Assembly: GCA_943736015.1 (NCBI GenBank)
Contig: OX031059.1
Location: 50,231,159 to 50,295,158, forward strand
From: Tridacna crocea
Lineage: Eukaryota; Mollusca; Bivalvia; Cardiida; Cardiidae
Length of the DNA stretch: 64,000 nucleotides
Direction: 5' to 3'
Positions 1,366 through 59,375 of this stretch are shown here, piece after piece. Within the stretch, counting starts at the first letter, position 1. Every line of letters begins with the position of its first letter. The notes under the pieces are model-generated. The model saw only the letters and a program-made list of their open reading frames with translations, was not told where the DNA came from and ran no database searches. The position numbers were made by a program, and so were the translations under genes.

Positions 1366-1835
1366 CTTTCTTTCTCAGGATTGTTAAAACCTCAGAATTG
1401 TTTAGCAAGGGGTTAAGGTTTGAAACATGTATTCATTCCCATAAAATTTTACATGGTATAGCAGAAGTAAGCAATTGTAAATCAATTTCTACTTCTTCTA
1501 AAATGTTACAAAGTTGTCTGCTACCAGACAATATAAGTTGTCTGCAGGAAGTATTTAGTTAATTTGCATACAGAAATACTTCATTCTGACAGAAATTGTC
1601 TGATTTTCCATTCAGTCAGTTGAAAGGCCACAGAGAAGGCTTAATAATTAAAGCATTTCCACTGGCATAGCAGCCACTTTAGTTCAAGATCTGACTGCAA
1701 CAATCATTCACTCTGATCTGATTTTCACTGTTCCCTTTGCTAAGTTATTATGGACAAAAGCAACCTCCATATTGCTCTTATTAGACTCCTTTTAGTAGAA
1801 TAGACTTGTCTGATGGCTTTAGTTGATGCTTTAAT

Positions 1836-2049
1836 TCTTTCCCAAACGATACAATTTTAGACTGGTCCAAAATGAAAGCACTTGCAGATGACAAAATAAA
1901 CATAAGTCAAATTTTGAAATTAGCTCCCAGCAGGACAGAAAACATTGTGGGAAAAGGAGAAAATGCTGGTTACCAGCATTTTCTCCTTTTCCAACAATGT
2001 TTTCCAAAGCTTTCTTTCTCAGGGTCGGGATTATGTTGTAAAGAGTTAA
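1836..2049 (-). mobile_element. TTAA-palindrome MITE
   Basis: Left end CTTTCCCAAACGATACAATTTTAG, palindrome at 1938-2003, right end GTAAAGAGTTAA. Confidence 0.8.
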
Positions 2050-2319
2050 GAGTTAACACTTTTGCAAGGAAACAGACTGTTGGCTATATCTACAGCAGAT
2101 TGCTTGGGGACATACAAGCTCTTCTGCAGACATTTCTAGAAGCATCGAATCCAAGGAGGTATACATCATTATAGTCAATTTCTTGTTCGGCTAAACTGTT
2201 ATCTTGTTGGTTCTAGCTATCAAGATTTTATGATGTAATGCCTTCCCTTATGATAATTCTCAGAATTTTAGAAGATAAGTTTTTACAGAAACTCTCACTG
2301 GGTGCATAATGGTCTTATA

Positions 2320-2500
2320 ACCCTGTACCACACAATCTGACCTTTTACTATTAAACAACCTTAAAGAGTAAAGGTTGGAAAAAAAGTATTCTCTCCTTTT
2401 CCCACAATGTTTTCAATCCTACCAGACAGAGAAATCACTATTTTAGCAACATTTCAATTGTTGTCTGCAATTGCTTTGATTTTGTCTTTTGGTACAGAGG
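2320..2500 (+). mobile_element. TTAA-palindrome MITE, degenerate
   Basis: Left end CCCTGTACCACACAATCTGAC; only the right palindrome arm (TCTCCTTTTCCCACAATG) survives. Confidence 0.6.
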
Positions 2501-3021
2501 TAAATACCACAGCAAGGGTTCTGCTGTCCCAAACAATAACCATACCTTGTCCAAAGGAAGACTGCCTTTCAATAAGCTATGATTGTACCTCTGTTCCAAA
2601 ATGATACCAGGAGCAGTCTGTTACTGTATCTCTTTGGCAACACAAGAACAGCCTGTGTATAATGTAGTCCATGTAAAAGGACAACTTGGAGAGAAAGACA
2701 TGATGCTTGGGTACATAACTTAATTCTATTGGACGAGTACACTACAAAACCAGTCTATATTTTGGATGAGGTGACAGTCAAGTCCAAAATAATGACTGGT
2801 TCTGCAATGTACAATCCAAATGAATCTAATATTGTACCCAAGCATGTACAATGACCTCTTTATTTCACATTTTCGTATTGACTTTAAAGTAAACAACAAG
2901 TAAAGGGCCATTTCAATTTGAATAATAAAAGAAAATCAAAAGATAGTTTGACAAAGAAGTTGCTTCTTTTTCAACAGACTTCGGTAGACTACTCTCCAAT
3001 ATCCATATTTTGTTCTCTATC

Positions 3022-3113
3022 CTCGTTCTGAAAAATCCATATATGGCTCTTGCCTCGTTTTGAAAAATCTATTTTGGACTCTTGCCTCATTCTGAAATTC
3101 TGTATTGGACTCC
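3022..3113. repeat. Short tandem repeat, about three ~36-bp units
   Basis: Units share the pattern TTCTGAAAAATC..TATTTTGGACTCTTGCCTCATT with several differences. No function is visible. Confidence 0.5.
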
Positions 3114-3629
3114 AAAGCGTCTAATATGGGCAAAGTTATTTTGTACTCAAGTGGAAGTGTTAAAGTGATTTCATTGGACCATAAACTGTAGATATGAAAT
3201 AAATATTAACAAGAAATATTCTGTCAAAATTCTATTCAATTCCCAAGAAATGTGGAAAGAGTTGCCTTCACAAGAAATGGAATGAAATATAACATGAAAC
3301 CCCCTTTTTGCATGACACCTTATTACAAAAACAAGGGCAAATAACTGTGGTGTTGCACCGTCAATGTAGGTGAAACTTTTTTCCTGCATTTCCTAATGGA
3401 AGTTGACAGATGTGACAAGTTCAATGTTATAAAAACTTTGTATAGTTTTGAAGACAGGACTCCAAACATCAAAAATGTACTTAAGTGTAACTTAAGTGAA
3501 ACTTAAAATCGCTCTCAATTGGCCATTTTGCATTGAATCAAAAAAACAAAAAAAGCGTCTCGGGAGAATGGGTCATTGTACATGTGTATAAAGTTTCACA
3601 AAATTCTGTCCAATGGTATTGGAGATATT

Positions 3630-3667
3630 TGCCGGGACGGACGGACGGAAGGACTGACGGACGGACA
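3630..3667. repeat. GGAC/ACGG microsatellite
   Basis: An interrupted GACG/GACT run. Similar runs end other pearl-like elements here, so this is probably the 3' part of a decayed copy. Confidence 0.6.
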
Positions 3668-4126
3668 ACACTAAAACTATATCCCTCTGCCCACGGCGGA
3701 CGATAATAAAGTGATGCCAAAAAAGTTGAGCCTAATTTCATCTATAGGACCATGAAAAATGCAGCAATTTCTGAATATGACCATAAATTTCTTATATCCA
3801 TACTGTTCTCTTGCTACTTTTTTTTTGTTACAATCTAGTGCAACCATGACATCAGTATTATAGATCTAACACATGTTCTTAGTTTCTCTATAGAACAACT
3901 AGTAAAAGAATCTGCTATGATATGGCTACAATTCTGCAATATGATTCTATTTCTCTCTTTGTACATTATTGGTACTGCAACCTATTATCTTTTTAAAGAG
4001 GTTGTGTTAAGATTTTATAAACTATGTTTTACTATGCACCGGGATTAACTAATTTGTAATCAGACTTTTAAAATACTCTTACAGATTATAATTATATGGA
4101 CAAAATTATTCAAAGGAAAGGAAAAA

Positions 4127-6170
4127 CTAGAAGGCCCTGAAGGGCCTGATATCGCTCTACTGGCAGAGATTTTGCTTTTATTCAAGCATACACTATGAAT
4201 TCATGATTAAAAAAAAATACAATGATTAAAACCAGAAATGCCGACTTCAACAGATCAAATAAGAAATCAAAATTTTCAACTTGAAATGGCTTCTTTTCCC
4301 ATACTGATTTGTCGGATTTTTTTCAAAATCAATAGGCTTGAAGCTATTGATAAGATAAACAAACTCTGCAAGTTTCACAAAAATCTGATAACAAATGCAT
4401 AAACAAGAATTGGTAATTTTTAACTTGAAATGGCTACTTTTCCCATATTATTTGTTGGATTTATTTCAAAATCGATACTGTTGAAGCTTTTGGCGAGATA
4501 ACAAACCATGCAAGTTTCACAAAAATCTAATAACAAATACACATTTTATCCCGTAAAAAAGAATTTGAAATTTTCAACTTGAAATGGCTACTTTTCCCAT
4601 ACTGTTGGTTGGATTTTTCTAAAAATAAATTGGGTTGAAAAGCTAATGATAAAAAAATCAAAGCGTTGAGAATGCTGAAGTGGTATTTGTCAAGGAAAAA
4701 CCCATTGCGTGGAATTAATAGTTTGAAAGAAAGAGAGACATATTGTTCAAATATTGGCTTAAAAGCAAATGAATACCTTTTTGGTTGAAGGGAGAGTACT
4801 CGTGTACCTTAAAACTATAATTTTGAAATATCTTTAGCCTTTTACATTTAATTTCCAACATTACAATCAATTACTTTGATCTATAAATATTCATAAGCAA
4901 TCAAATGGAGTAGCGCGCAATCATAGGACGAACAAGCCATGGAACGAATTGGTTTTGGAACGAAAAAGCCCAGGGTCAGTAGGCAAATTTGTATCATTGC
5001 GCCAATAAAAGTCTATGAGCGAGAGAAGCTATTTTCAATCAAAAATAAGTATCTCAACGATCGATGGCCTCGCCCAATGTATTTTAAAATGCCATTTCAA
5101 ATTACATATCTGTGTGCCACCGAAAAACTCATTTGCCTGAGAAAGAATGAGTGTAACAGGGTTTATTTCCTTCGGTTTTGCACAAAATAAGATACATGGT
5201 TATCAAAATTAAATCTTGAACTCATAGTGGTATTGTCTTCGACAAATACCACAAAAACTGTTTGATTTTCATGAAAATCTGACAAGAAAGACCAACTTTA
5301 TTGTGTAAACATGAATTAGAAATTTTCAACTTGAAAGGGCTACTTTTCCAATACCATTTGTTGGATTTTTTTCAAAATCAATAGGGTTGAAGCTATTGAT
5401 GAGATAAACAAACTGTGCAAGTTTCACAAAAATCAGGCAACAATTGCAGACTTTATCGCGTAAACAAGAATTAGAAATTTTCAACTTGAAATGGCTACTC
5501 TTCCCATACTGTTGGTTGGATTTTTCTCAAAGTCTATAGGGTTGAAGCTATTGATGAGATAAACAAACTGTGCAAGTTTCACAAAAAACTGACCACAAAT
5601 GCTGACTTTATTGCATAAACAATAATTAGAAATTTTCAACTTGAAATGGCTACTTTCCCAATACTATTTGTTGGATTTTTCTCAATATCAATAATGTTGA
5701 AGCTATTGATGAGATAAACAAACTGTGCAAGTTTCACAAAAATCTGACCACAACTGCAGACTTTATCGCATAAACAATAATTAGAAATTTTCAACTTGAA
5801 ATGGCTACTTTTCCCATACTATTTGTTGGATTTTTCTCAAAATCAATAGGGTTGAAGCTATTGATGAGATAAAGAAACAGTGCAAGTTTCACTAAAATCT
5901 GACCACAAAGGCAGACTTTATCGCGTAAACAAGAATTTGAAATTTTCAACTTGAAATGGCTACTTTTCCCATACTGTTTGTTAGATTTTTCTCAAAATCA
6001 ATAGGGTTGAAGCTATTGATGAGGTAAACAAACTGCAAGTTTCATGAAAATCGGGCTACAGATACAGACTTTATCGCGTAAACAAGAAAAAGACTAACAG
6101 ACAGACGGACGGACGACGGAAACCACGCCATGACATAAGCTCTGCTGGCTGAAAGCTAGTAGAGCTAAAA
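4127..6170 (+). mobile_element. Pearl/HINE-like element with ~155-bp tandem core
   Basis: The 5' end has the AAGGCCCTGAAGGGCC hairpin and GCTCTACTGGC. The core is at least eight monomers marked by AACTTGAAATGGCTACTTTTCC (near 4273, 4419, 4572, 5318, 5477, 5635, 5790, 5946), with spacings of 146-159 bp. An ACGG-type microsatellite lies at 6100-6118. The 3' end AGTAGAGCTAAAA inversely echoes the start. The array is interrupted by the insertion at 4680-5252. This architecture matches the bivalve 'pearl' elements as I recall them. Confidence 0.7.
4680..5252. mobile_element. 573-bp insertion with GTGGTATTTGTC inverted ends
   Basis: GTGGTATTTGTC at 4680-4691 is inverted at 5241-5252 (GACAAATACCAC). 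The right end is itself a hairpin (GTGGTATTGTC-TTC-GACAAATACCAC). It separates monomers of the ~155-bp array. An 83-codon ATG frame inside (4939-5190) has no recognisable domain. No clear target duplication was seen; the superfamily is unknown. Confidence 0.5.
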
Positions 6171-31917: not shown

Positions 31918-32159
31918 GCGCTGTTGTACCTTGAGGAGTGAAGACTGGTCTCGGCTTCTCTCTATATACAACACTACCGTGACGAATTCTTTTCTATTCG
32001 TCAGTTCATTTTTGGTTGAATATATTCTTTGGAACATATATTCAAACCTTTTTAAGCTATCTTGGTAGCTTATTATTTATTCTGTTCGCAGAATTTTGTT
32101 GTCGTAATTTCACGACTGCCTCTTTGTGACTTCGGCCACTTTTCGGCCACGTGGACAAT

Positions 32160-33278
32160 ATGGCTGACAAGGAAGTACAGCTGTCAAAAGACAGTGCGGT
32201 TTCGGCCGCTTCTGGAGGAAAGAAGTTTACAACAACTTCTTCGAAGGCACCTATAGCAAAACCTGGTCCTTCTAATGCCTCGACAAGTACCACTTCTTCG
32301 ACGGGCACGAAAATGTCGACCAAAGAGGCCCAAAATCCGCCCATGCGGGAGCTCGTGGGTATTTTGCGAGAACTTAATGCCAATTTAAATGCCCAGAGTG
32401 AGCGTATTGACAAACAGAATCAAAGTATTGACTTTTTGATGTCACAATTGAATGACCCTTGTAGCTATGCAGATGATTCTCAAGTTGATGAATCTGAGTA
32501 CAATTATGATGACGAGACCGACTGTTCTTATCCTGAACAGGGCGACCAGGAGTCTCCTATTGAACCATTACAAAATTCCATATTCAAAAAGATGTCATAC
32601 AAATTTCAGCAGACAGAACCTTTGGATGTTGATGTACATCCTGATCTGGCAAGTTTGGTAAATAACTCATTTAGGAATGGACTGTCAGAGGAAAATTAAG
32701 ATGAATTATGTAAACAAATTCATCGTCCTGAGAATTGTGATGCCCTTGTTAAGACCAGGGTTAATCAAGGAATATGGCGTCTTCTGAAAAGCTTTACTCA
32801 AGCTGAGGACACTAGACTTACAGCAATACAGGGTGTTATGTTGAAAGCAGCCACTAATATTGTTAAACTTTTGGAAAAACTTAGTTCATCAGATTCCGAG
32901 CATGTTGAATTAGGGACCACAGCTATAGCTCTACTCGGTCATGCTAATAAGATGATAAATACCAAGAGGAAAGATCTGCATAAGTCCGACCTGGACTCCA
33001 AGTACCATTACTTAGCCTCTGCCTCTTTACCATACACTGATCTACTGTATGGTAATGATACTGATGTTAACAACAATGTGCGTGAAATAAACACTATGAA
33101 TAAGATTGGGAAGTATCCTGGACGAGGTGCTTTTGCCAGAGGCCAGAGTCATGGAAAACGTGGTTTTTCTCCTTACCCTGCACGAGGGCGTGGTTTTCGA
33201 GGCCGTGGTAGAGGTGGCCCTATGAATAGACCAGACAGTTCTGGACCAACAAAAAACCCCAAACCACAGAAAAAGTAG
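32160..33278 (+). pseudogene. DIRS Gag-like ORF1 with one in-frame stop
   Basis: The frame starts at ATG 32160 (an in-frame GTG at 32151 is not a credible eukaryotic start) and would give ~372 residues. It is cut after 179 codons by TAA at 32697-32699, then stays open in the same frame to TAG at 33276-33278. The sequence after the stop (DELCKQIHRPENCDALVKTR) is typical of DIRS ORF1, so this is one protein with a nonsense mutation, not two genes. The N-terminus is Ser/Thr-rich; about residues 60-100 (LRELNANLNAQSERIDKQNQ) look coiled-coil-like; the C-terminus is RG-rich (GRGFRGRGRGG), as in nucleic-acid-binding Gag tails. The likely role is packaging of element RNA. Confidence 0.85.
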
Positions 33279-35318
33279 AGGTCAGTACACCTGTTTTTTA
33301 TGCTGGTAGAATATCTGATTACATTGAAAATTGGAGAAAAATAACTTCAGATGAAAATGTTTTAGACATAGTCCAGCATTGCCACATTGAATTTGAACAA
33401 GGTGAAAACCCTGTTAACTCCCATTGCCCTAAAAATAAATTTACTGTGCATGAAGAAAAAGTCATTGATGATGAAATCCAGAATTTATTAGATATGGCAG
33501 TCATTGAAGAAGTTGATCATCATCCAGAGGAATATATTTCTCCAATTTTTGTAATCCCAAAATGCAATGGCGAATATAGAATGATTTTAAATCTAAGAGA
33601 ATTGAATGAGCATGTACAATACCATCACTTTAAAATGGATACTTTTGAATCGGTCATAAAATTAGTCAAGCCAGATATGTATTTTGCTAGTACTGATATT
33701 AGCCATGGCTATTATAGTGTACCTATTGCAAAAGAAGATAGAAAAAAGCTTAGATTTTCACACAAAAATAAAATCTACCAGTACCGAGCTCTTCCCAATG
33801 GAATTTCTTGTGCACCAAGGCAATTTACAAAATTGATGAAACCTGTATATGCATCTTTGCGCATGCTTGGTCATAAAAATTCTGGATACATTGATGATTC
33901 TCTGTTAATGGCTGATACACAGTCAGACTGTGCAAATAATATTTTTGATACTGTGAGTCTTATGTCAAATCTTGGTTTTTTGATTCATGAAAAGAAATCA
34001 GTTCTTGTACCAACAAAAAAAGATTACCTTCCTCGGTAATGATATTGATTCAGAAAAAATGATTGTCACGTTACCTAACAATAAGATAGAAAAAATAGTT
34101 AAAGCATGTACAGAGCTCTTTATGGCAAAAAGAGCTAGAATACGCCAGGTTGCACATGTATTGGGTCTCATGGTTTCTTCCTTTTCGGCAGTTGAATTTG
34201 GTCCTTTACATTACAGGATCATTGAACATGAAAAAATTCAGGCTGTAAAACAAGTCTGTGGTGATTATGACTCGTATATGGCAATTACACCTGAAATGAG
34301 AGATGATCTTTCCTGGTGGATGCATGATCTCTACACACAAGAACGAAAAATTTGTCATGGAAATCCAGACATCATAATCACTACTGATGCAAGTGCTTTT
34401 GGATGGGGTGCCATTTGCAAAAATATCAAGATAGGTGGCCGTTGGAATGACTTTGAGATCCAGAATCATATCAATTATTTAGAATTGCTGGCTGCATACT
34501 TAGCTGTTAAAGCATTCTGCAAGGAAAAATCTAGTGTACATGTTCAAATTCTGTCTGATAATTCCAGTACAGTTTCATACATTTGTAGTATGGGGGGTAA
34601 GATAAAAAATTTGAATGATCTTGCAAGAGAAATGTGGCTTTGGTGTAAAGACAGAGAAATTTGGCTATCATCCACTCATATACCTGGTGTAGAGAATCAA
34701 GCAGATTTTCTATCAAGAAATTTCAATGAGAATGTTGAGTGGAAACTGAATGAATCTATTTTTAATGAGTTGGTTAGTATTTTTGGTTTGCCGGAGGTAG
34801 ACATGTTTGCCTCTACATCAAATAAACAGTTAGATAGATTTGTTTCATGGAAACCTGATCCAGATGCAGAAGCTATAAATGCTTTTTCAATAAGTTGGGA
34901 AAGAAAATACATATATGCTTTTCCTCCTTTCAGTTTGTTAGGTCGACTTCTTCAGAAGACTCGACAGGATCAGGCAGATGTCTTACTGGTGGCTCCTTTT
35001 TGGGTGACACAGAACTTCTACACAACTATTTTGGAGATGTTAACCCACGATCCTTTTATCATCAAAGTAGGCCAGAACACTCTGAGATTACCTTTAACAG
35101 AGAAAAAACATCCTCTACTGAACAAACTACATCTAATGCTGTGTCGTATATCAGGAAATCCTATGAAAGTAAAAAACTATCAGAAAAATCTATTGACATC
35201 ATCATGGCGTCCTGGAGACAATCCACTAAGAAGCAGTATTCCACATACATTAACCGATGGATTTCATTCTGTGATGAAAGGAAAATTGATACGTTTCAAA
35301 CCCCTATTGAATTTGTAA
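33230..35318 (+). pseudogene. DIRS reverse transcriptase-RNase H, broken by one frameshift
   Basis: The frame opens at 33230, overlaps the end of Gag and lacks an early ATG, which fits expression by -1 frameshift. The N-terminal part (FYAGRISDYIENW) is DIRS-like. The RT domain shows SPIFVIPKCNGEYRM, NLREL, a DISHGYYSVP region and the catalytic YIDD at 33887-33898. In the A-run 34015-34021 (seven A) the frame shifts: the old frame stops at 34037-34039, while the family motif ITFLGNDID continues one frame over from 34023. RNase H follows with TDAS (~34384), ELLAAY (~34480), SDNSS (~34555) and ADFLSR (~34700), its acidic residues present. A DIRS-type C-terminal region (LLVAPFW, HPLLNKLHLM) ends at 35318. 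Only one base separates it from an open frame. Confidence 0.88.
33251..33257 (+). promoter_or_regulatory. Candidate -1 ribosomal frameshift site A AAA AAC
   Basis: The heptamer lies in the correct phase of Gag (ACA AAA AAC). Slipping back one base makes the next codon CCC at 33257, which is the reading frame of the RT ORF. That frame is open from 33230 and has no ATG before the conserved RT N-terminus. This is the canonical X XXY YYZ form. I did not identify a downstream pseudoknot. Confidence 0.6.
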
Positions 35319-36121
35319 TAGAGTTTCTTACTGAGTTGTATGAATCAGGACTTAGTTATGAAAGTTTAAACTCTGCAAGAAGTTCCTTATCTAACCTTTG
35401 TAATAAGCAAGATGGTTATACTGTAGGGAGTCATCCTTTGGTAACTCGTTTTATGACTGGGGTATTTAATTTGCGTCCATCACAGCCAAAATACCTGGAA
35501 ACTTGGGATGTGAATATTGTTCTGCGTTACCTGAAGACGTTGTCACCAGTGGAAGATTTATCATTAAAATTATTGACTTACAAGTTAGTAATGTTGGTTG
35601 CTCTGACTCAGGCAAGTCGTACGCAATCTATTTCATTATTGTCATTACAAGGAATGAAGAAAGATTCCAAAAGTATTGTTATGTTCTATAGTGGGTTATT
35701 GAAACAATGTAGAAAAGGAAAAGTAAATCCTTTTGTACAGTTCCACATGTATACGCAAGACAGCAATATTTGTGTATATAAGACACTTAGTCACTACATT
35801 CATCGCACAAGTTCTTTAAGAGGTTTAGAGAAAAATCTCTTCATCAGTTATGTAAAACCATATAAGCGTGTTGTTTCAACAACAATAAGTAGATGGATAA
35901 AATGTGTTTTAAGGAATTCAGGAATTGACATTGAAAAGTATACATCACACAGTACAAGATCAGCAATATCATCAAAAGTGAAACACTCAGGACTTCCATT
36001 AACAGAAATTATGAAAGTAGCAGGATGGTCGAATGCTACTACTTTTTCAAGATTCTATGATAAGCCAGTAGACACAGGGAACAGTCATACAGAGGCCTTT
36101 CAGACAAGAGCATTGCAGTAA
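35204..36121 (+). CDS. DIRS tyrosine recombinase, intact 305 aa
   Basis: The first in-frame ATG is at 35204; the frame is open back to ~34895 and overlaps the RT-RNase H ORF, so a longer form made another way is possible. The N-terminal ~95 residues look like a core-binding domain (SWRQSTKKQYSTYINRW). The catalytic set is complete: R139 (TQASRTQ), H249-x-x-R252 (HSTRSA), W275 (AGWSN) and nucleophile Y285 (RFYDK). The enzyme would insert a circular DNA copy by strand exchange at a short shared core, which explains the absence of integrase and of long target duplications. It is the only undamaged gene of the element. Confidence 0.92.
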   Translation: MASWRQSTKKQYSTYINRWISFCDERKIDTFQTPIEFVIEFLTELYESGLSYESLNSARSSLSNLCNKQDGYTVGSHPLVTRFMTGVFNLRPSQPKYLETWDVNIVLRYLKTLSPVEDLSLKLLTYKLVMLVALTQASRTQSISLLSLQGMKKDSKSIVMFYSGLLKQCRKGKVNPFVQFHMYTQDSNICVYKTLSHYIHRTSSLRGLEKNLFISYVKPYKRVVSTTISRWIKCVLRNSGIDIEKYTSHSTRSAISSKVKHSGLPLTEIMKVAGWSNATTFSRFYDKPVDTGNSHTEAFQTRALQ

Positions 36122-49439: not shown

Positions 49440-51479
49440 GGTTTTTTGATACAAATCAAAATTTGAAATTTGTAAGGGGAGAGAAAATGTGGGAAAAGGA
49501 TAAACAAGAGGGCCATGATGGCCCTGAAATCGCTCACCTGAGTTTATTGACCAAACATGCACTATCTAGTTTCCCAGTGACCTAGTTTTTTATCAGACAT
49601 TACCCATCATCAAACACTTTTGAGATATCAGTAAGACAAACATTCTGGCCAAGTTTCATGAGTATTGGACTGAAAATGTGGCCTCTACAGTGTACAAAAG
49701 GTTTTTCTAAGATTTCATCAAGTGACCTAGTTTTGGACCCGACAAATACCCATTATCAAACTCTTTTGAGACATCACCAAAACAAACATTCTGACCAAGT
49801 CTGAAGAGTATCAGGCAGAAAATGTAGCCTCTGGAGTGTACACAAGGTTTTTCTAATATTTGACCCATTGACCTAGTTTTTGTCTCCACATGACCCATTT
49901 TCAAACTCATTCAAGGTATCACCAGGACAAATATTATGAAGAAGTTTTAGGAGTATCAGACTGAAAATGTGTCCTCCAGAGCATACAAAAGGTGTTTATA
50001 ACATTTGACCTATTGACCCAGTTTTTGACCCAACATGACCCATTTTCAAACTCATCCAAGATATTATAAAGGCAAACATTCTGACTAATTTTCAAGAGTG
50101 TTGGACTGAAAATGTGGCATCCAGAGCATATACAAGGTTTTTCTAAGATTTGACCTGGTGACCTAGTTTTTAACCCCCAATGACCCATTTTCAAACCTGT
50201 CTGAGATATTATCAAGACAAACAGTCTGACCAACTTACAAGAGTTTCGGACAGAAAATGTGGCCTCTAGAGCCTACAAAAGGTTTTGTTAACATTTGACC
50301 TAGTGACCTAGTTTTTGACCCCACATGACCCATTTTCGTTCTTGTCAGAGATATCATCCAGGCAAACATCCTGACCAACTTTCATGAGTATCCAACTGAA
50401 AATGTGGCCTCTAGAGCGTACAAAAGGTTTTTCTAAGATTTGACCTAGTGACCTAGTTTTTGACCCCACGTGACCCATTTTCAAACTCATCCGAGATATC
50501 ATCCAGATCCTGACCAACTTTCATGAGTATCCGACTGAAAATTTGGCCTCTAGAGCGTACAAAAGGTTTTTCTAAGATTTGACCTAGTGACCTAGTTTTT
50601 GACCCCACGTGACCCATTTTCGAAATCGTCCAAGATATCATCCAGACTAACATTCTGACCATTTTTCATGAGTATCCGACTGAAAATGTGGCCTCTAGAG
50701 CGTACAAAAGGTTTTTCTAAGATTTGACCTGGTGACCTAGTTTTTGACCCCACGTGACCCACTTTCAAACTCGTCCGAGATAACATCCAGACAAACATCC
50801 TGACCAACTTTCATGAGTATCCGACTGAAAATGTTGCCTCTAGAGCGTACACAAGGTTTTTCTAAGATTTGACCTGGTGACCTAGTTTTTGACCCCACGT
50901 GACCCATTTTTCGAAATCGTCCGAGATATCATCCAGACAAACATCCTGACCAACTTTCATGAGTATCGGACTCAAAATGCGGCCTCTAGAGCGTACACAA
51001 GGTTTTTCTAAGATTTGACCTAGTGACCTAGTTTTTGACCCCACATGACTCATTTTCGAACTCGTTTGAGATATCATCGAGACAAACATCCTGACCAACT
51101 TTCATGAGTATCGGACTCAAAATGTGGCCTCTAGAGTGTACACAAAGTTTTTCTAAGATTTGACCTAGTGACCTAGTTTTTGACCCCACATGACCCATTT
51201 TCAAACTCGTCCGAGATTTCATCGAGACAAACATCCTGACCAACTTTCATGAGTATCCGACCAAAACTGGCCTGTACAGCGTACACAAGGTAAAAAGTTG
51301 ACGGACGACGCACGACGGACGACGGACACAGCACGATCACAATAGCTCACCATGAGCACTTCGTGCTCAGGTGAGCTAAAAACTGGTGGTTACCAGCATT
51401 TTCTCCTTTTCCCACAGTGTTTTCAAACGGCCTTTTTCTGAGGATCGTCAAAAGTTGGTATTGTGTGGTCTAGGGTTAA
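49440..51479 (-). mobile_element. TTAA-palindrome MITE split by a pearl-like element
   Basis: Left part ~49440-49502 ends GTGGGAAAAGGAT inside the palindrome; right part 51381-51479 resumes CTGGTGGTTACCAGCATTTTC and ends at TTAA 51476-51479. The palindrome itself was the target. Confidence 0.7.
49503..51380 (+). mobile_element. Pearl/HINE-like element with ~145-bp tandem core
   Basis: The 5' end is AACAAGAGGGCC-ATGATGGCCC and CGCTCACCTGAG. Eleven to twelve monomers are marked by GACCTAGTGACCTAGTTTTT (for example 50297, 50442, 50581, 50725, 50870, 51017, 51162; 139-147 bp apart). GACGGACGACG follows, then a 3' hairpin GAGCACTTCGTGCTC, CTCAGGTGAGC (inverse of the 5' block) and terminal CTAAAA. 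It is inserted in the palindrome of a MITE whose halves remain at ~49440-49502 and 51381-51479. The hairpin a few bases before a CTAA end, plus the offset inverted ends, suggest a Helitron2/HINE origin. Confidence 0.78.
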
Positions 51480-53669: not shown

Positions 53670-53895
53670 AATCTTTACCACACAATCCAGACTTTTAATG
53701 GCCCAGTGCAAGAAGCCATTTGAAAACATTGTGGGAAAAGGAGAAAATGCTGGTTACCAGCATTTTCTCTTTTTCCCACAATGTTTTCCACCCTATCAAA
53801 GGAAAGTCACATAATTTGAGCCACATTGGAATTGTCATCTGCAGATGCTTTCAATTTGGACAAGTCTAAAATTTCGTCATTTGGTAAAGAGTTAA
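53670..53895 (+). mobile_element. TTAA-palindrome MITE in the minisatellite
   Basis: Near-complete: left TTTAAATCTTTACCACACAATCC, perfect core, right TTAA 53892-53895. Confidence 0.85.
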
Positions 53896-54343
53896 GCAAC
53901 AAGAATCCCTTGATGTTATACACAGGTTTAACAAAGGTATGTGCGATATTACTGCAGCAGTACTTTGATGTCAGACACAGGTGTGTCATACGGCAGTGAA
54001 TGGTTACATCAGAAGTTGCATGTCTAATACAGGTATATCATAAAGCAGTGAAATATTACATCAGCAGTTGCTTTTTGTCAGACATAGGTGTATCATAAAG
54101 CAGTGAAATGTTTCAGCGGAGGTAGCTTGATGTCTGACACAGGTATGTCAAAGAGCAGTGAAATATCACTGCTCAGCACATTGATGTTGAACCCATGTGT
54201 ATCATGTAACATTGAAATGTTACAGTGGCCGCTCCTTGTTGTCTTGTACATGCGTATCAAAGGGCAGTGAAATGTTACATCAGCAGTTACTTTATCAAAA
54301 CACCAGCAAAGTATGGGTCCCTATAAAGTAAGAAACGGAACCG

Positions 54344-54508
54344 AAACGAAACGCAACGAAACGGAACGAAACGTTACGAAACGGAACGAAACGGAACGAA
54401 ACGTTACGCAACGAAACGGAACGAAACGCAACGAAACGAAACGAAATAGAACGAAACGGAATATAACGTGAACGAAACGAAACGGAACGAAACGAAATGA
54501 AATGTAGC
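54344..54508 (+). repeat. Left TIR minisatellite of ~10-bp units
   Basis: About 16 units of the form G-N-AACGAAAC with variants CGGAACGAAA and CGTTACGAAA, followed by T23 at 54515-54537. Confidence 0.85.
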
Positions 54509-54835
54509 CGCGTTTTTTTTTTTTTTTTTTTTTAAACTTATCTTTTTGTCTCAATTTATCGTTTTTCTGTTGTACTGTTTCCAATTGTTTTATCCCACAG
54601 TGTATTTAAGGCACAAAAAGAATTATGTCGCTGAATTTTTGCGATTATTTTGCATTGAAAATCTGGTCAAAGTCAAGATTAAGCACTTAAAACGATAATC
54701 CTCTACAAGGGAGTGTAGTTTTAAGGTTGCAAAAAAACATATTAGGTGCAATTTTGAATATTTGACGTGTAGAGAAAATTTAATTTTGTTCTGTCACTAT
54801 GGTATCAGAGTATTATCACAGGGCGCCGGAATATG

Positions 54836-55300
54836 GCGAGCCTGGGTAGCACAGTTGGTAGCGTACAGGACTTGAGAACAAGGGTCGCCAGTTCAAATAT
54901 CCATTCGACAAATTTCTTTCCAAAGATTGATGATAGTCATTACGACAGGATTCATTCCTCTCTCTCCTGTGATCACCGATAGTAAGCGATTAAAAGCAGC
55001 CAGTGGCTTGGGAAGAATATTACTCTCGAAGTACCAAAAGTAAAAATAACAGCAGGAAAACACAGATAGGTGTAATGCAGCGATTTTGTTTGGTTTGTAT
55101 TAGAGTTTAATGCCTTTTTAACAGCGTGGGTCATATCATGGCGGTCAGTGTCGCACTAATGTGTTTCCTGGCTTTTTCACACCAGTACTGACCAAGTCCA
55201 GGTCACGAGTCTGATGCGCTAACCACTGAGCGATCCGCCCGGGCCAAATGTAGTGATGCATGCAACGATACAACAAATGTTGTATAGGGCGTTAAATCTT
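54836..55300 (+). mobile_element. tRNA-derived SINE, split by a second SINE
   Basis: tRNA-like head 54838-54908 (GCACAGTTGGTAGCGTACA, A box; GGTCGCCAGTTCAAATATCC, B box), then GATTGATGATAGTCATTACG, shared with the SINE at 57399. The tail TGTTGTATAGGGCGTTAAATC at ~55274-55295 seems to belong to it, beyond the inserted minus-strand SINE. Confidence 0.65.
55085..55258 (-). mobile_element. tRNA-derived SINE nested in the previous one
   Basis: Head on the minus strand at ~55246-55180 (GATCGCTCAGTGGTTAGCGC, A box; GACCTGGACTTGGTC), tail GGCATTAAACTCTAATAC near 55095. Flanks ATGCAGCGAT and ATGCAACGAT look like its target duplication. Confidence 0.65.
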
Positions 55301-55425
55301 TAGACATTGTAGTAAAGAGAGAAAATGCTGGTAACGAACATTTTATCCTTTTCTTAAAACATTTTCAAAAGTACTAGTATTCTCCTTTAGGGGCGGTGAA
55401 ACTCAGGATTTTGTAACAAGGGGTT
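55300..55425 (-). mobile_element. TTAA-palindrome MITE remnant
   Basis: GAGAAAATGCTGGTAACGAAC core with right arm TTTTATCCTTTTC, then AGTATTCTCCTTTAGGGGC. Confidence 0.55.
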
Positions 55426-55473
55426 TGTTTCTTTCATGTTTAAATCGAAAACTGAGGTCATATCTGTTCTGCA

Positions 55474-55630
55474 ATGAGAGCTGTGATCGTATGGTGGTTA
55501 GTGCTTTGCGAATTAGCCGACATTCCCGGTTTGAATCCTGGTCACGGCAGGTCTGTGACCGTCGCTATCTCGGCACAGCTTAACAATTTTTAGCTGGCCT
55601 TTGGGTTGTAAGGCGTCTTACACCACTTTT
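55474..55630 (+). mobile_element. tRNA-derived SINE
   Basis: Head 55479-55549: ATGGTGGTTAGTGCTTTGCG (A box) and GGTTTGAATCCTGGTCAC (B box). Tail GGTTGTAAGGCGTCTTACACC. Confidence 0.6.
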
Positions 55631-55803
55631 CATACGATTTCAATTCTATGACTGCTTCGTTTGACTCTGCTGACGTTTTTTATTGTTTTTACCACACAAG
55701 CAATTTCATCTCTTTCCTCTTTGTTGTGCATATTGTTGAAAATGTAACACTTCCATTGGATACGAGCCTTGCTTTTGGCAAAAGGGAGTTTAGTGCCTCG
55801 CAG

Positions 55804-56555
55804 TTATACATGATACCAAGTAGGTCATCATATTATTATGGATACATAATTTCCCTCCTTGTTTAAAAGTCGACTGAATCACGAAGTACACTGGTCCTTT
55901 GACAGGTATAATATTGACTAAGTAGAATATTGACTAACTAACAAACATTTTCGATTAAGATCAGCCTGCACAGATTGCGTCATGCAGCGATACAACTGAT
56001 ATAATGTTTAGTTTAAACATATTCATCTTACATCGATTGAAAAACAAGTTCTTACAACTTGTACTTATCTCTCGCTATTCTGCTTCCTCTGAACTAAACC
56101 AGTACTCGCGCCAAATGTGTGGGCTAATGAAAAATCCCAAAGCTGACACCCGTTCCCGTGTATCGAACTCGGGACCTGATGATTATGAGGCCGACGCTCA
56201 ACCCTACGACCACGGACGCCACACAATAATGTTGAAAAGGGTGTTAGACACTATACAGTCAATAAAATCAAGCGTTGGAATATTTCAAGTATGTTTTTTT
56301 TCCCAGGGTTTTAATTCTTAATTTGAACAATATTCTGTAAAAGAGAGCTTAACGAATCCGTAAACCGTAAACCGTATCCACCCAGGTCAGCCTGCACAGT
56401 CCCCGCAGGGTGACGTGAGCGGAAACCTTTCCCTATTGGTCACTTTTCTGCCTGTCAAAGGACCAGAGTACTTCATGTTACAGTGCAAAGTTACACACAA
56501 AAAAAGATTTCATGGATCTAAAATTGTGTGAGGACCTACTTGGTATCATGCATCA
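55804..56555. repeat. Inverted repeat, ~100-bp arms
   Basis: 55806-55905 (TGATACCAAGTAGGTCATCA .. CACTGGTCCTTTGACAGG) is inverse to 56450-56555 (CCTGTCAAAGGACCAGAG .. CCTACTTGGTATCATGC). The SINE 56002-56231 lies between the arms. Confidence 0.6.
56002..56231 (-). mobile_element. tRNA-derived SINE, same family as 62267-62496
   Basis: Head at the right (inverse of GAGGCCGACGCTCAACC and TCGAACTCGGGACC), TTTAG-type tail at the left. ATAATG on both sides suggests a target duplication. It sits in the tail of another SINE-like sequence that resumes TTGAAAAGGGTGTTAGACAC at 56232. Confidence 0.72.
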
Positions 56556-56875
56556 CGGAGATGTAATCACGGAGATATATTAAGCCCCCTTTTGCATCAT
56601 TGTATATTTCGTTAACTGTAAGTTAGTATTAACTTATTTTAAAGTCGTCTTTTGGGGCTACTGTTAGTTAAAATTTCTTTATGTACTTTTTAAGAAACCT
56701 CTATTTCTATTTAAAATGAACTAGGACAGAGCAAACTGGAAGGTTTCAAACAGTGACTGAAAGGGAAAAATAGTGCATAAAACTTTTGATGTATCCAGAA
56801 ACCTTAAAATGAATAGGTACATATGCCGCAGACATAATTTCTCTCAGAAAATTAATTTCAAACCTAACATTTTCT

Positions 56876-57094
56876 AGGGTCCTGAGTGGCTCAGTAGTAA
56901 AGTGTAGGACTTGTGACCTGGAGGCTTTGGGCTCAATCCTCACTGGATCCACTGGCTTTTTTGTGGCAAGATCATTCAGAACCCTAGCCAAGTACTGGTG
57001 GAACTCACAATACATGAATCTGTGAGCTATTGCCGTGATATAACTGAAAAATTGTTGAAAGCGGCGTTCAATCTAGAATCAGTCAATCAATCAA
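56876..57094 (+). mobile_element. tRNA-derived SINE
   Basis: Head 56879-56952 (GAGTGGCTCAGTAGTAAAGTG; GGGCTCAATCCTCACTGG), body GTGAGCTATTGCCGTGATATA, tail TTGTTGAAAGCGGCGTTCAATC then a TCAA-rich end. The tail agrees with that of the SINE at 57399. Confidence 0.72.
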
Positions 57095-57398
57095 AATCGT
57101 CTGTCCCGGTCTCGACGATTTTTTATGTATGTCTGTTTCATGCAAAAAAAAAAAGACATTCAATATAATTAGCCATGTTCAGTGACATAAGGTCTTCGAG
57201 GCTACTATTTTGGGATGGAAATCAAAGTGATTGAAAAACAGACCGTGCATGAAGAAAGGTGATATCTGCACAAATGTACAAAATTTAAATAAAGACTCAA
57301 AACCGGCATTCTAATTCGCCTGATATAAAATGGATTATTTTTCTAAAGCATCTTGTAAGAATCCAAACCGGTTTCATTACCGGCAGTAGGTGTTATCA

Positions 57399-57714
57399 AA
57401 AGGTCTCTGTAGCTCAGTCAGTACTGTACAGGACTTGAGAACAGATAGTCGCTGGTTCGATTCCCTACTCTGCCAATTTCTTTTCGAGGATTGATGATAG
57501 TCATTGCAGCAAGATTTATTCCTCTTTCGTCGAAGGCCGTTGTGTCGGCGAGGGTTATGTAGAAAAGCAGAAAAATGGCATGTAAACAACGTTATGTTGA
57601 AAACTTTTGTAAGAAATTCCAGGAAAGCACCGATAGACCTGCACTGGCAGCTGCTTTGTAATTGAAATTATGTTGAAATCGGCGTTTAACGCCATACAAA
57701 ATCAATCATTCATA
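57399..57714 (+). mobile_element. tRNA-derived SINE, ~315 bp
   Basis: Head 57401-57475 (GTAGCTCAGTCAGTACTGTAC; GCTGGTTCGATTCCCTACTC) folds like a tRNA, but the body continues and ends ATGTTGAAATCGGCGTTTAACG then an A/T-rich tail, so it is a SINE. Confidence 0.75.
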
Positions 57715-57784
57715 ATCGGTTATCAGTGCATTCAACCTTGCTGTATTTGGACATGAATTTTTAATCACAGTATTTATGGAAACA

Positions 57785-58250
57785 ATATACAAAATATCAA
57801 CCAGACTGCGACGTATTTGCAGTACTGATGGCTGCCAAAAACCATCTTTGCCAGCCAAGGCTGACGATTCGCTACGCTACTCTACCCTTGGCGGGATTTT
57901 TACATTTCCCCCAATACGCTTTTTCATTGGATGCAGCCAGTCCTAACTGCAACGGATGAAATCGCTCGTAGCATTTCATCTTTGATAAAAATAGATCAAG
58001 ATCACTACCTTTCGAATAGAAGGCAAACATGGAAACCCACGTGGATGTCTGCTTATCGCTTTCATGTGTATTCGTAAGCGGTTTGTAAACCGATATTTCA
58101 TTGGCTTTTAGAAATATGATGGAAAGGGTGTAATAGAGGGCGCATCGCAGGAATCTCGAAATCGGGCTCAATCAGCCAAGGTAAGATCCAGGTAGTGATC
58201 GTAACCTTGGCTCCCGGAGATGGCCAGAAACATGAAGAACATTTTATTGG
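57785..58250. other. Unidentified GC-richer segment in the Foldback-like element
   Basis: Contains AGCCAAGGCTGACGATTCGCTACGC..CTTGGCGGG and, inverted, CAGCCAAGGTAAGATCCAGG..CCTTGGCTCCC. No coding frame of note. It may be another nested repeat. Confidence 0.35.
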
Positions 58251-58475
58251 AGATGTATGTCATAACAAAGTAAACAATAGTCTAAGTTCACTCAAACCAA
58301 CATTAAAATAAAATGTCTTCATTTAAATTGTCAAAATTCACCAAAGTATCACGATCATAGTGCGCCGTCAAAATTTTAAGTCTTACTTCGTAACAATTTC
58401 GGCAATCAAAAGTAGGCTTATTTACAAAATCAAATTATGTTTTCCTTCTGCTTGATTTTGTACCAAAAATAGCAT

Positions 58476-58598
58476 TCCGTTTCGTTTCGTTCCGTTTCGT
58501 TCTCGTTCCATTCCGTTTCGTTCTATTTCGTTTCGTTCCGTTTCGTTGCGTTTCGTTCCGTTTCGTTCCGTTTCGTTGCGTTTCGTTTCGGTTCCGTT
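58476..58598 (-). repeat. Right TIR minisatellite of ~10-bp units
   Basis: Inverted counterpart (GTTTCGTTCC, GTTTCGTTGC units), shorter than the left array, so the two have changed unit number independently. Confidence 0.85.
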
Positions 58599-59124
58599 TC
58601 TCAGTTTATAGGGACCCGCAAAGTATTACGTCAGTTGTTACTTGATGTGTAACATGTGTATCAAAGAGCAGTAAAATGTTACATCAGCAGTTACTAGTCT
58701 TTATCAAAAGTAGTGAAATATTACATCAGTTGTTCATCTCTTGATGTCTATCGCATGTGTATCAAAGAGCAGTGAAATGTTACACCAGCAGTTACTTTAT
58801 CAAAAGTAGCGAAATATTACATCAGTTATTGCTTGATGTCCAAAAAATGTGTATCAAAGCTCAGTGAAATGTTACATCAGCAGTTACTTTATCAAAAGTA
58901 GCGAAATATTAAATCAGTTATTACTTGATGTCTAACACACGTGTGTCAAAGAGCAGTGAAATATTACATCAGCAGTTACTTGATGCCCATCAAAGGGCAG
59001 TTAAATGTTACAGTTGCAGTCCTACTTTTCAACTAATTAATACAACATATTTTTTTACACTTCAAAAAAAAGTAATTCCTAAAATTTAATCCATTACCCA
59101 CCTAATTTGCTTCTGATAACCATC

Positions 59125-59375
59125 CTTATCAGACAATCAATGGTTTTCACGACTCTCGCAAGGTAGGGTTTTGCACGACTCTCGCAAGGTAGGGATTTGG
59201 AAACATATTGAGGAAATGGAGAAAATGTTGTTGGTGACCAGCATTTTCTCTTATTTCCAAAATTTTTTCTACTCTATCAAAGACGAAAATCATTATTTGA
59301 GCAACATTTAAATTGTTGCTTCAAATGCTTTTAGCCTAGTCTGGTCTAAAATGTTGTCGTATGGAAATGGGTTAA
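59125..59375 (+). mobile_element. TTAA-palindrome MITE with internal duplication
   Basis: CACGACTCTCGCAAGGTAGGG is duplicated in tandem in its left arm (~59148-59193). Core GAGAAAATGTTGTTGGTGACC. Right TTAA 59372-59375 shared with the next copy. Confidence 0.72.

Follow-up and report, generated by a model that had tools for sequence, protein, structure and literature searches.

An array-ended element within a minisatellite

We analyzed a 64,000-nucleotide window of the Tridacna crocea genome (contig OX031059.1, C4:50231159-50295158), in which a 4303-bp element at positions 54315-58617 belongs to a real nonautonomous family of Foldback-type transposons, an assignment that is well supported by the evidence below. 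The tip GGGTCCCTATAAA starts at 54315 and its reverse complement ends at 58617, and directly outside both ends lies an exact 9-bp target duplication, GCAAAGTAT. A preliminary description of the window had placed an element with a perfect 9-bp duplication inside a minisatellite at this site, and its coordinates, tips and duplication are exact to the base.

Both ends follow one plan, with the tip leading into a run of pentamers, mostly GNNAC, and then into an inner module (Table 1). In the window copy (L009), the distance between the outer end and the inner GAAATAG module, taken as array length, is 128 bp on the left and 88 bp on the right; by complementarity, the two longest pairings between its arms extend over 122 nt (86%) and 114 nt (89%). 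The surrounding minisatellite has a period of 55 bp on the left and 92 bp on the right, and the flanks, joined minus one duplication, align over 99 bp with two minisatellite units (85% and 82%).

Table 1. Parts of the element and its insertion site, in window coordinates
Feature	Position	Strand	Remarks
Host minisatellite, left part	53946..54305	+	~55-bp units; insertion target of the element
Left target-site duplication	54306..54314	+	GCAAAGTAT, read from the sequence; exact 9-bp match with the right side
Left terminal inverted repeat	54315..54512	+	tip GGGTCCCTATAAAGTAAG; pentamers follow up to 54442
Left-specific inner module	from 54443	+	GAAATAG...GGAATATAACGTG...; part of the left terminal inverted repeat
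Non-coding core	54513..58466	+	poly-T at start and dispersed-repeat pieces; common to other copies (30 places, 94-100% identity)
Right terminal inverted repeat	58467..58617	-	tip (- strand) GGGTCCCTATAAACTGAG; array 58530-58617; right-specific inner module farther inside
Right target-site duplication	58618..58626	+	GCAAAGTAT, exact match with the left side
Host minisatellite, right part	58627..59015	+	joined flanks restore the unit

The longest of 16 open reading frames (ORFs) listed for the window copy encodes 105 aa, and Pfam recognized no domain in the five core ORFs submitted. Sequences matching pieces of the core, for example element positions 990-1057, 1692-1908 and 3528-3733, are found elsewhere in the window or in DNA flanking other copies, so the core is partly a mosaic of dispersed repeats carried along. 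By eye, some stretches of it look tRNA-like or resemble short interspersed elements; a tRNA scan of the window found none, and an Rfam search of 54000-59000 gave no match at gathering scores. Short palindromic repeats (GAGAAAATGCTGGTTACCAGCATTTTCTC-like) recur across the window (53726-53788, 59207-59269 and many further sites) as well as in DNA flanking other copies, with one occurrence within the core, at 55304-55366.

Dispersal and mobility of the family

To place this copy among its relatives, we searched the genome (1.05 Gb in 31 contigs). The 13-base tip occurs 264 times (135 forward and 129 reverse), against 20 times (10 and 10) for a reversed-pattern control, from which about 20 of the 264 are expected by chance. 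Pairings and distances rest on the 233 tips that were listed individually. Among these are 85 inverted pairs, 60 of which span 4.0-4.7 kb; the 25 outside that range include 4 script mispairings at two nested C4 sites, where correct pairing gives two inner elements of ~4.3 kb and two outer ones. A DNA search with the element, in which the best 32 of 19,561 first-look candidates were scored, returned 30 loci at 94-100% identity, and all but L037, whose second tip was not found, make up our set of 29 complete copies. Their cores diverge on average by 1.1% from the majority sequence and by 2.0% pairwise, with a maximum of 3.8%, in a sample that leans young because the best-scoring copies were taken.

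The target sites speak for movement. Perfect duplications flank 26 of the 29 copies (9 bp in 21, 10 bp in 5), while two of the remainder have one mismatch in 10 and one, L033, is shifted. The duplications are somewhat AT-rich (69%, versus 63% in the flanks), most strongly at mid-site, and follow no strict consensus. In two cases, L030 and L038, the element is nested within another element with a 9-bp duplication, and removing it together with one duplication restores a continuous match across the interrupted host. Dispersed copies, target duplications and nested insertions together show that the element is mobile as a unit.

One could suppose instead that copies spread mainly by segmental duplication or within larger units, and one clear case exists. 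Copies L014 (C5:52283041) and L017 (C5:52326492), 43 kb apart, have the same duplication and identical 60-bp flanks on both sides, within a segmental duplication of at least 7.3 kb at 99.3% identity, and thus represent one insertion within a duplicated segment. As a general route this is very improbable and is refuted by the copy-specific duplications, as no other two of the 29 copies share one: in comparisons between different copies, 2 of 812 match, both of them L014 against L017.

Beyond the complete copies, the family extends to more divergent members. We sampled 18 further odd pairs with 20 snippets, and the core is present at 80-98% in 17 of these pairs, in some cases over part of the snippet only; one of the two snippets from the pair at C5:17475514 is without a core match. 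The 146-bp pair L044 consists of ends only, has no perfect duplication by eye and folds into a hairpin of -61.9 kcal/mol (shuffled mean -20.8, z = -15.75). Two extra pairs comprise L090, with core at 96.5%, and L089, a 10.1-kb pair (C13:27911691-27921798) in which one sampling gave no core match. Of 36 unpaired tips, 20 were sampled ~160-410 bp inside: eight match the core at 81-98%, one of them over 114 bp only; three (L071, L081, L084) have weak or dispersed-repeat matches; and nine have no core match, although one, L077, resembles diverged core by eye. Tip sequences were read for four of these nine, and each shows a pentamer array. Three other tips comprise L003, which has core; L007, which has an array with other DNA inside; and L004, which is without an array and is probably a chance tip. 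The non-core interior of one of the nine without a core match, L082 (C6:1360390-1360640), is a high-copy dispersed repeat abutting a family end; of 3663 first-look candidates, 40 were scored, giving 41 matches at 88-100%.

Ends built of 5-bp units

The preliminary description had read the ends as inverted arrays of 10-mers, different in length, that change by unit number. The inversion and the inequality stand, and so does unit-wise variation, but the unit is not 10 bp. Measured between outer end and inner module, array lengths in the 29 copies range from 63 to 163 bp on the left and from 78 to 153 bp on the right, in 5-bp steps throughout; since all 58 arrays have lengths of 3 modulo 5, the unit is 5 bp. 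Odd as well as even unit numbers are present, and left and right lengths differ in 26 of the 29 copies. At the right end of L018, where the inner module is present twice, the array was measured to the first. The modules have kept to their sides: motif ATATAACG of the left module is present in 28 of 29 left ends and no right end, and motif GGAATGGAA of the right module in 26 of 29 right ends and no left end. As the two modules stay distinct, the ends are not homogenized as wholes.

Unit number changes quickly relative to the rest of the element. Within the duplicated pair, the core of L014 differs from that of L017 by 1 substitution in 3922 bp, whereas the left arrays measure 138 and 143 bp (one unit) and the right arrays 148 and 123 bp (five units). 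On a tree of the core, over which ~785 core substitutions are counted, array lengths require no fewer than 20 and 21 changes, and shuffled labels give means of 19.8 and 20.7; without signal on the tree, unit number changes too fast to trace ancestry. Assembly error could mimic single differences such as those between L014 and L017, but hardly the 5-bp stepping throughout.

That the arrays are tandem repeats varying in unit number might suggest two unrelated minisatellites facing each other by chance, and the preliminary description had itself named independent minisatellites lacking an inverted partner as the finding to set against its claim, proposing a genome search for the tip beside the array. 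We counted 655 occurrences of an 18-base array word and none of its reversed control, and 96 of the first 100 listed occurrences lie at most 300 bp inside a same-strand tip. The other four are not beside an exact tip: two are faced by an unpaired tip at a distance of 6.1 kb (arrays at C1:27865838, tip at C1:27871951), and for the other two the closest exact tip is at least 11 kb away. The arrays are not free-standing minisatellites, and this search does not refute the claim. Chance facing, which we consider next to impossible, is refuted by the tip-linked arrays together with the 85 inverted pairs, the nested insertions and the perfect or one-mismatch duplications of 28 of the 29 copies.

The bases following the tip also differ among copies. 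GT follows at both ends in L039, L041 and L042, whose cores are more diverged. Among the young copies, GT on the left is combined with CT on the right in 28 of 29, which suggests a change of the right tip within this subfamily; counter to this, GT follows the tip at both ends of L029, and CT does so at both ends of a few pairs.

Probable kinship and possible source of the transposase

The ends and duplications bear out the Foldback-type architecture that had been proposed, with array-built inverted ends of short tandem repeats, length variation by whole units and exact 9-bp duplications in 21 of 29 copies. With a probability of roughly 0.8, we read the family as nonautonomous cut-and-paste DNA transposons of Foldback architecture, moved in trans by a transposase that is most likely a MULE, a reading that suits the composite ends and the 9-10 bp duplications. 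Kinship to Mutator is thus likely. Such a transposase, produced elsewhere and most likely a member of the Mutator (MULE) superfamily, would recognize the GGGTCCCTATAAA tip and probably also bind the adjoining pentamer array, and the 4.3-kb unit would be excised and reinserted with a 9-10 bp staggered cut. After insertion, the arrays gain or lose whole 5-bp units, a change for which replication slippage or unequal exchange would be the simplest route.

Published systems provide several points of comparison. MULE target duplications measure 8-11 bp (PMC6446971), a range that includes those of this family, and Rehavkus combines a 9-bp duplication with a PHD-finger transposase and a minisatellite before its 3' end (PMC6446971); of these features, the duplication agrees with the family, in which no transposase was found. 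Most Mutator superfamily members have G or C at the first three terminal bases (PMC13359780). The family tip begins with GGG and agrees, by what is a weak criterion. This terminal feature is common to other superfamilies too.

Foldback-like MULEs with array ends are known in Muta1 (PMC5225508) and Tm1 (PMC3169594). Muta1 and its relatives, type 2 Foldback MULEs of Aedes aegypti, likewise have long ends made of a short terminal motif and tandem repeats, with 8-9 bp duplications and many enzyme-less derivatives of variable unit number and diverse interiors; they differ in having 12-bp units with spacers and 145-bp ends, where the clam family has 5-bp units without spacers, and in a transposase that is active in yeast, where we found no enzyme (PMC5225508). 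Tm1, a Mutator/Foldback element of root-knot nematodes, shares composite ends of variable length, mostly 9-bp duplications and mostly enzyme-less copies, but has a ~14-bp motif and a known copy with a Phantom-type transposase, in contrast to the 5-bp unit and lack of a coding copy found here (PMC3169594). Tetris/DAIBAM, from the Drosophila virilis group, resembles the family in its Foldback structure, 8-10 bp duplications and an autonomous copy that was not found, and its placement in Mutator likewise relied on duplication length, with no enzyme at hand; its ends are TIR-220 repeats and three structurally complete copies are in the assembly, as opposed to pentamers and 29 complete copies here (PMC4079207). 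A 5-bp unit is shorter than those described for Aedes (9-15 bp, PMC5225508) and Tm1 (~14 bp, PMC3169594). The preliminary description had taken the lineage to be molluscan and possibly undescribed; among the literature matches listed, with Repbase outside the search, there was no description of a molluscan Foldback element, and a literature search for pentamers at Mutator ends gave no match; the bivalve satellite-DNA papers PMC8268682, PMC5139131 and PMC11136912 only cite Tetris in their reference lists.

The FB elements of Drosophila melanogaster also have inverted ends of short tandem repeats, variable end length and 9-bp duplications. Their units measure 10, 20 and 31 bp, unlike the pentamers here, and the likeness is one of structure.

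Several results weigh against a MULE acting in trans. The preliminary description had suggested looking for a copy that encodes such a transposase; across core ORFs, long pairs and the distances of genomic MULE loci from listed tips, with some interiors unread, no transposase-coding copy with the family tips was found. A PF10551 profile search, with all 101 candidates scored, gave 61 MULE loci, the nearest 92.6 kb from any of the 233 listed tips, and of 75 matches to the protein of L063, described below (85 of 108 candidates scored), the one closest to a listed tip is 93.2 kb from it. These distance tests cover all but 31 of the 264 tips, and several unpaired tips have non-core DNA inside that was read only in part. 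The long pairs L039-L042, considered as possible autonomous copies, all turned out to contain the family core, altered by inserts or rearrangements. Stop-to-stop ORFs listed for the inserts in L039, L041 and L042 reach 138 aa at most, and in L040, among ORFs of at least 100 aa with a start codon, the longest encodes 112 aa; the 138-aa ORF of L039, the only one of L039-L042 run against Pfam, had no match. As a separate observation, the L042 insert (~3690-5710) and a 145-bp tandem array of the window (50003-51291) are the same satellite, at 90-94% identity over 1297 bp in opposite orientation.

In favor of the MULE reading, array-ended MULEs do exist in this genome, as L063 shows (1616-4914; C1:4341000-4346800). 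Like the family, this transposon has tandem-repeat ends and a possible 9-bp duplication, and its own two tips differ from each other at 4 of 14 bases; unlike the family, L063 carries a 502-aa ORF with FLYWCH and MULE domains, its units measure 14-15 bp and its tips are of another sequence. Its own family numbers 18 full-length genome copies at 99-100%, with an internal TGA in two and TAA in one, and was probably active recently, given that the copies are near-identical. Since tips and units differ, L063 could not be accepted as the proven partner, a further point against the MULE assignment.

There is a small chance that a Foldback-type transposon is driven here by a different enzyme, such as one of the P superfamily (as in Galileo), Merlin or hAT. 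Foldback ends arose more than once, Galileo having a P-type enzyme (PMC3169594). Profile PF21787 detected 19 loci with a P-type RNase H domain, the nearest 221 kb from a listed tip. P superfamily and Galileo duplications measure 7-8 bp and those of hAT 8 bp, which the 9 or 10 bp of 26 of the 29 copies do not fit. A similarly speculative idea is that of a separate animal Foldback lineage, whose transposase, possibly too distant for the MULE profile, would read a strict 5-bp register and tolerate any unit number, with the arrays acting as a fast binding-site counter that tunes the mobility of each copy. Because 5 bp is half a helical turn and moved copies have odd as well as even unit numbers, such an enzyme would bind the array without a fixed helical phase.

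Elsewhere in the window, a retroelement at 32151-36121 (+) has neighboring ORFs with RVT_1 (E 4e-18) and Phage_integrase tyrosine recombinase (E 2e-10) domains, a combination by which we take it to be DIRS-like.

The architecture described here belongs to an already known general type, Foldback, and the family gives unusually clean evidence of change in its ends. With 29 complete copies read and 85 listed tip pairs, the T. crocea elements add a well-replicated Foldback family in which end-repeat change can be measured against substitutions within the same copy. The difference between the arrays of L014 and L017 after their segmental duplication suggests changes in end length that need no transposition. 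Whether mobility is tuned by the number of repeats in Foldback ends becomes directly testable, and the near-identical FLYWCH and MULE family of the same genome provides a candidate enzyme for comparison.

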